The position numbers and the translations under genes were made by a program. A stretch of DNA of 64,000 nucleotides from Paraburkholderia phenoliruptrix (GTDB lineage: Bacteria; Pseudomonadota; Gammaproteobacteria; Burkholderiales; Burkholderiaceae), in contig NZ_CADIKB010000003.1 in NCBI RefSeq assembly GCF_902859825.1, positions 62,001 through 126,000 on the forward strand, written 5' to 3'. This document shows, in pieces, positions 21,491-22,905 of this stretch; position 1 is the first letter of the stretch; every line of letters begins with the position of its first letter. The notes under the pieces are model-generated. The model saw only the letters and a program-made list of their open reading frames with translations, was not told the DNA's origin and searched no databases.

Positions 21491-22783
21491 TCAGTCGATG
21501 CCATGAAAGACAGCGTCGTCCGGACCGAGATATGCGGGCGGGCGCCAGGCCGCGTCGCGCATGGAATGCTGAACCAGTTTTTCGACGCCGAGCAGCACCG
21601 CGAATATCGCCATCCGCACTGGAATGCCGTTGTCCGTCTGCCGGAAAATGGCGAGCCGCGAGTCGTGATTGAGGTCCACGCTCAGGTCGTTCGCGCCCGG
21701 CCGGCTGTCGCGCGGCAGCGGGTGCATGACGAGCGTGTCGCTGCCGCACACGCTGTCCACCAGCGCCTGATTGATCTGGAAATCCGGCGTGTAGCCTTCG
21801 AATGATTCGTCGGTAAAGCGCTCCTTCTGAATGCGCGTGGCGTACACCACGTCGGCGCCGCGCAGCCCGCTCGGCAGGTCGTGAGTCTGTTCGATCACAT
21901 GTCCATTGCGCGCAATCTGCTCGATGATATAGCCCGGCATTTCCAGCATGGGCGGCGAGATCAGCGTGAACTTGATGCCGCGATAAAGCGCCAGCAGCTT
22001 GACGAGCGAGTGCACCGTGCGTCCGTACTTCAGATCGCCGACAAGCGCGATATGGGCGCCGTCGACAATCTTGCCGAGCCGCGAGAACTCGCGCTGAATG
22101 GTGTACAGGTCGAGCAGGGCCTGGCTTGGGTGCTCGCCGGGGCCGTCGCCGCCGTTGATCACCGGCACGTTGGTCGCACGCGCGAATTCGGCCACCGAAC
22201 CTTGCTCAGGGTGGCGGATCACCAGCGCGTCCACGTAGCCGCTCATCACGCGGCTCGTGTCGTAGATCGACTCCCCCTTGGCCATCGACGAAAACGTAAA
22301 GCCTGTGGTGTCGCACACGGAGCCGCCCAGCCGGCAGAACGCCGCGCCGAAGCTCACGCGCGTGCGGGTGCTCGCCTCGAAAAACAGATTGCCGAGCACC
22401 GCGCCTTCGAGCACGCGCGAAATTTTGCGGCGCCGCGCGATGGGCTGCATGATGTCCGCGACTCGAAAGAGCGCCTCCACCGAGTCGCGCGAAAACTGGT
22501 CGACCGACAGCAACTGCGGCTTGCCTTCCCATAGCATCTGGCTCGCCAGCGATTGTGAATCTACGCTTTGCGTATACTTTTCGCCCGGTTCGCCGTTTAC
22601 CACGATCTCGGAGACGAAACGCTCGACAATCTCCGGCATGGCCCGCGACTCCTGCGAATCGTCAGGGAGAAGCCATGTGTCGAGCGCGCGCCGCGACACG
22701 CCGATGCGGCCCGCGAAGGTATCGCGCGTCATGTTCAGGCGCCGCATGGCGTCGCGGAGAAAGGCTTGTTGGGGGACGCTCAT
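21491..22783 (-). CDS. Aspartate carbamoyltransferase with N-terminal helix-turn-helix
   Basis: A 430-residue protein, about 110-120 residues longer than ordinary PyrB. Residues 8-40 form an HTH (LNMTRDTFAGRIGVSRRALDTW), residues 41-78 a linker, and the rest a full ATCase: carbamoyl-phosphate loop FFEASTRTRVSF (STRT 138-141), ALVIRHPEQGS, GGDGPGEHPSQALLD, GDLKYGRTVHSL and HPLPR. It should form carbamoyl-aspartate, the second step of pyrimidine synthesis. The HTH suggests DNA binding by the enzyme itself. A palindrome overlaps its promoter and a near copy lies in its linker-coding DNA. No other pyr gene is nearby, so this may be a second, regulatory or catabolic ATCase. Confidence 0.88.
   Translation of the reverse strand: MSVPQQAFLRDAMRRLNMTRDTFAGRIGVSRRALDTWLLPDDSQESRAMPEIVERFVSEIVVNGEPGEKYTQSVDSQSLASQMLWEGKPQLLSVDQFSRDSVEALFRVADIMQPIARRRKISRVLEGAVLGNLFFEASTRTRVSFGAAFCRLGGSVCDTTGFTFSSMAKGESIYDTSRVMSGYVDALVIRHPEQGSVAEFARATNVPVINGGDGPGEHPSQALLDLYTIQREFSRLGKIVDGAHIALVGDLKYGRTVHSLVKLLALYRGIKFTLISPPMLEMPGYIIEQIARNGHVIEQTHDLPSGLRGADVVYATRIQKERFTDESFEGYTPDFQINQALVDSVCGSDTLVMHPLPRDSRPGANDLSVDLNHDSRLAIFRQTDNGIPVRMAIFAVLLGVEKLVQHSMRDAAWRPPAYLGPDDAVFHGID
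22558..22578. promoter_or_regulatory. Second operator-like palindrome inside the ATCase gene
   Basis: Arms aatctacgc and gcgtatact around ttt. It matches the promoter palindrome at 17 of 21 positions, with two differences in the spacer. It encodes residues 69-76, in the linker between HTH and enzyme domain. The centres of the two sites are 256 bp apart, suitable for looping. Confidence 0.5.
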
Positions 22784-22813
22784 GGAGGCACCTGTCGGAA
22801 AGTGTGCGCGCGG

Positions 22814-22834
22814 AATATACGCGGTGCGTATATT
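22814..22834. promoter_or_regulatory. Perfect palindromic operator over the ATCase -10 box
   Basis: Arms aatatacgc (22814-22822) and gcgtatatt (22826-22834) are exact inverted repeats around ggt. The right side overlaps the minus-strand -10 hexamer TAATAT, so a bound protein would block RNA polymerase. The HTH in the encoded enzyme is the obvious candidate. Confidence 0.7.
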
Positions 22835-22857
22835 AGTTTGGCTGCCGCAGAAGTCAA
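22830..22857 (-). promoter_or_regulatory. Sigma-70 promoter of the ATCase gene
   Basis: On the minus strand TTGACT (22857-22852), a 16-bp spacer, then TAATAT (22835-22830). The start would be near 22823, in the middle of the palindrome, about 40 bp before the ATG at 22783. Confidence 0.65.
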
Positions 22858-22875
22858 GTCATTTCGAGATACGCT

Positions 22876-22905
22876 TTGCCAATCCGCTTGGGGCGCGGTT
22901 ACACT
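22876..22905 (+). promoter_or_regulatory. Candidate promoter toward the dapA-like gene
   Basis: TTGCCA (22876-22881), 18-bp spacer, TACACT (22900-22905). The predicted start near 22912 leaves a leader of about 290 nt before the gene at 23204. Confidence 0.45.

Follow-up and report, generated by a model that had tools for sequence, protein, structure and literature searches.

A long aspartate carbamoyltransferase of Paraburkholderia with a predicted repressor domain and two candidate operators

Aspartate carbamoyltransferase (ATCase), which takes part in pyrimidine synthesis, is a textbook allosteric enzyme, and the locus described here raises the question of whether one form of it also represses its own gene. 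The locus lies in a 64,000-nucleotide stretch of the soil bacterium Paraburkholderia phenoliruptrix (contig NZ_CADIKB010000003.1, positions 62,001 to 126,000; hereafter the window) and encodes a 430-residue ATCase with a predicted helix-turn-helix (HTH) domain at its N terminus. This HTH-ATCase is predicted to switch itself off because a likely site for its HTH lies over its own predicted promoter and again inside its own gene. We consider it very likely that the HTH binds both palindromes, at the promoter and in the DNA coding for the linker, that the enzyme is thereby autorepressing and that its gene was fused from a plasmid-type gene; what we infer from the sequences is binding, a block to transcription at the −10 box, a gene fusion and whatever sensing there may be. 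The features concerned are the following (window coordinates).

21491..22783, minus strand: HTH-ATCase gene, 430 amino acids (open reading frame; NF008853 PRK11891 match; catalytic motifs)
21590..22516, minus strand: ATCase catalytic domain, residues 90-398 (PF02729 and PF00185; PDB ATCases match over about 84-400)
22520..22588, minus strand: linker between HTH and enzyme, residues 66-88 (predicted local distance difference test score, pLDDT, below 50 at residues 67-78; ATCase match begins at about 84-92)
22558..22578, no strand: operator 2, candidate palindrome in linker-coding DNA (17-bp core 22560-22576)
22589..22783, minus strand: predicted N-terminal HTH domain, residues 1-65 (AlphaFold2 model; nearest folds; standalone plasmid homologues)
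22673..22693, minus strand: predicted recognition helix, residues 31-37 (AlphaFold2 model; residue 36, at 22676-22678, mostly co-varies with an operator base)
22814..22834, no strand: operator 1, candidate palindrome upstream of the gene, overlapping the predicted −10 box (17-bp core 22816-22832)
22830..22835, minus strand: predicted −10 box TAATAT (promoter prediction; shares five bases with operator 1)
22852..22857, minus strand: predicted −35 box TTGACT (spacing of 16 to TAATAT)

Operator 1 reads AATATACGC-N3-GCGTATATT, a perfect 9+3+9 palindrome. A preliminary description of the locus had reported such a palindrome over the −10 region, and both its sequence and the overlap with the predicted TAATAT hold. 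Operator 2 has two mismatches to the arms of operator 1, and the 17 of 21 matching positions given for it earlier are right if the spacer is also counted; shuffled copies of the window have a mean of 0.02 matches. It codes for YTQSVD, residues of the linker, and its centre lies 256 bp from that of operator 1, in line with the earlier estimate. Throughout the 7.25-Mb genome, TATACGC-N3-GCGTATA with at most one mismatch is found at two places only, operators 1 and 2, while at most two mismatches give six places versus 13 for the reversed control pattern. Promoter scoring, confined to the surroundings of operator 1 and without a control set, puts the −10 of the top-scoring promoter 1 or 3 bases ahead of operator 1 in 22 of 26 representatives; the hexamers TTGACT and TAATAT are exact in 7 of the 26. 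On the minus strand a third half-site, GGCAAAGCGTATC, is weak (22868-22884, 4 mismatches to the full palindrome, −93 from the start); it occurs in the window locus and in L031.

We searched sets of 200 genomes of the order, 299 of the family and 398 of the phylum, took loci from the best matches and added 40 chosen further regions, resulting in 99 distinct loci with at least 50 % identity, a subset of all matches. Presence of the HTH was called from the start of the tblastn match, in 72 loci with and 27 without. The preliminary description had proposed looking for the palindrome at homologous genes: at up to 3 mismatches, the upstream palindrome is present in all 72 HTH-ATCase loci (0, 1, 2 and 3 mismatches in 30, 40, 1 and 1 loci) and the linker palindrome in 66, while none of the 27 homologues without HTH has a site in the 700 bp ahead of the enzyme domain. 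Four of the remaining six loci have linker remnants at 4 mismatches. The other two, L018 and L019, are without a linker site and carry two upstream sites each, 30 and 46 bp apart; one HTH-ATCase of Comamonas and one of Variovorax likewise have two upstream sites, 31-32 bp apart and one of them at 4 mismatches, so that the second site stands elsewhere in these four loci.

Loci named Paraburkholderia or Burkholderia sp., a set of 80 that may overlap in species with the 72, all have the upstream site (at most 2 mismatches) and the linker site (at most 3). Exact sites are found in 79 of the 163 family genomes that match the ATCase at E 1e-100 and in none of the 136 others, a split that was compared by hand and that rests on the ATCase match. 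At least one exact site, G337:C5, is remote from the HTH-ATCase of its genome. Sporadic sites with at most one mismatch occur elsewhere in some genomes, one shared sequence having been noticed, in G151 and G188. The 1.2-Mb genome G194 retains the HTH and both sites (L015, 1 and 2 mismatches). A match within the enzyme domain at +945 (2-3 mismatches) was rejected as a coincidence, as it corresponds to the codons for VYATRIQ and has 3-4 mismatches in homologues without HTH. Among the loci examined, the candidate operators are restricted to HTH-bearing homologues.

Codon usage within the linker site is unusual. In the 66 loci valine there is encoded by GTA in 56 of 56 cases, against 4.7 % of valine codons elsewhere in the genes, and alanine by GCA in 10 of 10 against 8.2 %; the first codon of the site has T at its third position in 65 of 66 loci, whether the residue is Tyr, Ser, Ala, His, Arg, Thr or Asp. 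These counts are inflated because the 66 loci were chosen for having a linker site. Taking the best position in all 72 loci instead, the CGC and GCG columns are kept in 69-72 of 72, and conservation drops in the outer columns (54 and 58 of 72, for instance). The codon choice in these linkers shows that selection acts on the DNA itself.

As for the protein, the ATCase with an N-terminal HTH proposed earlier is borne out by the open reading frame, by the PRK11891/NF008853 aspartate carbamoyltransferase match (885.7 bits against a curated cut-off of 560, spanning residues 1-430) and by a four-helix AlphaFold2 model. Pfam at E 0.001 finds two carbamoyltransferase domains only (PF02729 and PF00185, residues 91-396). 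The motifs STRTR, the serine and lysine of the 80s loop, HPSQ, RIQxER and HPLP, whose roles we take to be those of E. coli ATCase, are invariant or nearly so across 16 aligned relatives. Residues 1-65 contain a helical HTH fold in the predicted structure, with helices at 5-15, 20-27, 31-37 and 51-63 and a mean pLDDT per ten-residue block of 88-94 across residues 11-60; the closest folds are the repressor domains of Aca1, HigA2 and Aca10. Pfam HTH_3, the type of XRE and lambda-repressor-like domains, reaches 13.3 bits on the HTH of this ATCase, below the gathering score of 23, and is weakly matched in 14 of 16 HTH-ATCase members (best E 0.0026). The full-length AlphaFold2 model has a mean pLDDT of 60.6 and was discarded as evidence.

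Relatives of the HTH also exist as separate genes. Searched against plasmids by tblastn, the HTH gave 48 records, of which nine (69-84 % identity; two examined) resemble HTH-ATCases and the other 39 have 37-57 % identity, many being annotated 'transcriptional regulator'. From these 39 we took 26 loci, selected for variety, and dropped one broken reading frame, resulting in 25 standalone genes of 63-93 amino acids, as annotated or as called in this analysis, some of them near-copies. A palindrome of the form TAT-N-C-X-C-N3-mirror with at most 2 mismatches lies inside the gene or no more than 150 bp from it in 20 of the 25, where dinucleotide shuffles give an expectation of 0.175. In 11 of the 25 (0.025 expected), or in 14 at up to 3 mismatches (0.2 expected), its centre falls 5-55 bp beyond the stop codon. 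These expected counts are somewhat too kind because the plasmid pattern was framed after the first cases. The strict pair, one palindrome before and one after the gene with a spacer of 3, is found at 3 of 26 plasmid loci (0.00 expected); at other spacers it is found at four loci for spacer 1, two for spacer 5 and one for spacer 7. Measured from the start codon, the post-stop palindromes stand at +215 to +253, with L272 (+310) as the one exception, and the centre of the ATCase linker site stands at +209 to +224. The paired palindromes of a Robbsia plasmid (−30/+222) and of a Burkholderia vietnamiensis plasmid (−23/+228) can be set beside those of the window (−41/+215). Six of the 26 plasmid loci (L255-L259, L262-L282) have the HTH regulator directly 3' of an integrase or HigA-type gene.

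We infer an in-frame fusion of an ATCase gene with a small autoregulated HTH gene of plasmid type, which brought along its second operator; the stop codon of the regulator would have been lost, its 3' operator would have become linker and its promoter operator would have stayed in front. In a tree of 55 enzyme domains with four classical PyrB outgroups a single HTH change is needed (support 71/87). One gain of the HTH is thus weakly favoured, being the best tree, with weak support and a warning of long branches from the run. A phage search with the HTH returned no standalone regulators, and a protein search returned 54 short proteins that are apparently fragments of HTH-ATCases. Small 'HWLLP' proteins from other members of the class (E 3e-6 and 7e-5) have no nearby perfect 7-N3-7 palindrome; one was compared with PDB chains, without a match. 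A 63-residue distant relative of the HTH, from a genome of the same class ('DHWLLP', L234:1468-1659), sits between trpB-like and trpA-like genes and is likewise without a nearby perfect 7-N3-7 palindrome.

Base X of the palindrome can be compared with residue 36 of the predicted recognition helix. In the standalone genes lysine 36 goes with C in 16 and asparagine 36 with T in 3, while the HTH-ATCases have threonine (68 of 72) or serine (4 of 72) at this position and an X=G site in 72 of 72, 71 at up to 2 mismatches and L018 at 3. The distant standalone relative L282, with threonine 36, has a CGC-type site at 3 mismatches. Exceptions exist: L258 has lysine 36 with an X=G site, within the coding region; L272 has lysine 36 and its sole match is X=A at 3 mismatches; L273 (asparagine 36) and L276 (lysine 36) have no match; L270 (lysine 36) fits at 3 mismatches only. 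L105 combines an X=A site in the linker with an X=G site upstream. That residue 36 mostly tracks base X is a strong lead rather than proof because few lineages are involved. The putative DNA-contact residues, whose loss would have spoken against a regulator, are present: R32 in the predicted recognition helix and R47 in the loop between helices 3 and 4 are kept in 72 of 72 HTH-ATCases.

How might such an enzyme act on its own gene? With pairs of HTH domains sitting on operator 1, RNA polymerase would be kept from the −10 box, resulting in negative autoregulation, and operator 2 may raise the local concentration or serve as a roadblock. Any sensing would come about through substrate binding or enzyme level altering the occupancy of the DNA. 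The promoter placement speaks for autorepression of this kind, though it is seen in 22 of the 26 representatives and not in all, with no control; with this counted in, our confidence is high, short of certainty. One form of it, autorepression by enzyme level (homeostasis) and without substrate sensing, has in our judgement close to an even chance. The standalone relatives leave little space for a ligand domain at 63-93 residues, and the low-confidence linker, modelled as if flexible, could uncouple the HTH from the active site; the sequence holds nothing against this form, but transcarbamylases undergo domain closure upon substrate binding (available part of PMC4581275), which could change HTH pairing. 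A fuller scenario is more tentative, and we lean somewhat against it: an autorepressor cassette would have been captured whole by a chromosomal ATCase, its 3' operator becoming linker, and the resulting substrate-switched enzyme would have displaced PyrR-PyrB-PyrC in several lineages. With carbamoyl phosphate and aspartate in the active sites the HTHs would release both operators, and pathway flux would therefore directly set enzyme synthesis.

Alternatively the palindromes may be sites of a separate repressor, with the fused HTH serving oligomerisation or being a relic. Binding by the HTH-ATCase is a prediction and palindromes are common at promoters, which leaves this explanation some room, but the sites occur only beside a fused HTH among the loci examined, residue 36 for the most part changes together with the operator base, the genome offers no further site with at most one mismatch for such a repressor to serve, and the HTH and both sites are kept even in the 1.2-Mb G194. 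We regard it as improbable. Slightly less probable still is that the linker palindrome is maintained because of the encoded protein or to form an mRNA hairpin, rather than as an operator. The site does lie within the coding sequence and could form a short RNA hairpin; however, its residues vary while the palindrome bases are constant and the codons rare, the upstream copy with the same sequence overlaps the predicted −10 box and would not be transcribed whole, and 14 of 25 homologous plasmid genes have a related site after the stop codon.

The earlier idea of a self-regulating ATCase stands, then, as regards an HTH of its own and two cognate candidate operators; two additions to it find no support. 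For looping, the 66 spacings range over 232-281 bp with no shared phase modulo 10.5, so phased looping is unsupported and any looping would be unphased. For shared control of dapA, which starts 370 bp from the end of operator 1, a dapA-like neighbour was found only at L149 of P. xenovorans among seven other loci scanned. The Pfam scan of ten neighbours of seven loci found a transporter, GGDEF, LysR, cupin, helicase, dehydrogenase, ABC transporter and dapA, with two genes outside any family, and recognised no anti-CRISPR gene, no anti-CRISPR library having been searched.

Enzymes that regulate genes are known. The DNA-binding part of such a trigger enzyme is represented here by the predicted fold and by homologous plasmid genes, many annotated as transcriptional regulators; a candidate cognate promoter site is represented, at the level of sequence, by the conserved palindrome over the predicted −10 box and by the co-variation of helix and operator. 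PutA of E. coli is a trifunctional proline enzyme and autogenous repressor (PMC5293562, in its available part). Like it, the HTH-ATCase would be a metabolic enzyme with an N-terminal DNA-binding domain that represses its own regulon. PutA is a catabolic flavoenzyme with a ribbon-helix-helix, in contrast to an XRE-like HTH on a pyrimidine-biosynthetic transferase with an operator-like site in its own coding sequence. PepA and PyrH are not known to carry a fused HTH. They are enzymes that control E. coli carAB, direct PyrH-DNA binding not being seen in that work (PMC6245113); they resemble the HTH-ATCase as trigger enzymes at a pyrimidine-related promoter and differ in their target, as the HTH-ATCase is predicted to act on its own gene. 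In the HTH itself a close comparison is Aca10, which recognises a palindrome ending in ATACGC half-sites and for which R44, in the loop between helices 3 and 4, is critical (available part of PMC9410881). The HTH-ATCase operators share the ATACGC half-sites, and we take R32 and R47 as the matching places. Aca10, Aca2 and Aca1 differ in the spacer (7 versus 3), have 16-18 % identity and, in the available parts of PMC9410881 and PMC8434428, no enzyme fusion. Searches of the open-access literature turned up neither an ATCase described as carrying a repressor domain and operators of its own nor an account of the HTH-ATCase as a regulator.

The long ATCase of Burkholderia (PRK11891) is apparently the same protein. 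Burkholderia has two ATCases, of about 340 and 430 residues, and PMC4581275 leaves as a question whether one is catabolic; its main text does not contain the term helix-turn-helix, and its 'Future Outlook' names no HTH, operator or autoregulation. The available part of PMC3966863 notes duplicated ATCase genes in B. thailandensis with one pyrB row and was not used here. The genome of the window also carries a standard pyrB, a point that the preliminary description had wanted checked. We looked for classical PyrB in 29 genomes with HTH-ATCase matches, including G246 and G421, small genomes being deliberately chosen. It is present with all five motifs in 19 (in one, G007, with a TGA inside the match) and gone or damaged in 10, where the long ATCase alone retains every motif. 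Classical PyrB was not found in G194, G367 and G098, shows changed or missing motifs in G212 (partly), G138, G210 and G246, and appears as fragments only in G379, G409 and G421; G367, G379, G409 and G421 are many-contig drafts in which a copy may be hidden. The diverged copies of G210 and G246 were missed by the TIGR00670 search (that of G210 also at E 1e-60), as was that of G138, which two other searches recovered. Examples of classical PyrB in which catalytic motifs are changed or missing are L232:1243-2412, L251:1114-2328, L227 and L248, in genomes whose long HTH-ATCase retains these motifs.

A dihydroorotate dehydrogenase family is present in all five of the ten PyrB-damaged genomes that were searched. 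Among 21 other genomes, the six without this ATCase all have an intact classical PyrB, and the other 15 have the relative that lacks the HTH, with no match to classical PyrB at E 1e-60. Since it is the sole ATCase with all motifs in 10 of 29 genomes, the long ATCase is likely biosynthetic where it stands alone. The contig of the window, beyond the window end (L026), carries what is probably a gene cluster for arginine deiminase, with arcA and arcC judged from their translations, together with an ornithine carbamoyltransferase.

These results offer a testable answer to the two-ATCase question of PMC4581275, namely that the long ATCase is likely biosynthetic wherever classical PyrB has decayed. 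Should the rule for residue 36 hold, one could predict which DNA sites the small plasmid regulators of this family recognise. If the proposed mechanism is true, the HTH-ATCase would be a case of a trigger enzyme arising by fusion of an autorepressor gene together with its operators, one operator being left in coding DNA.
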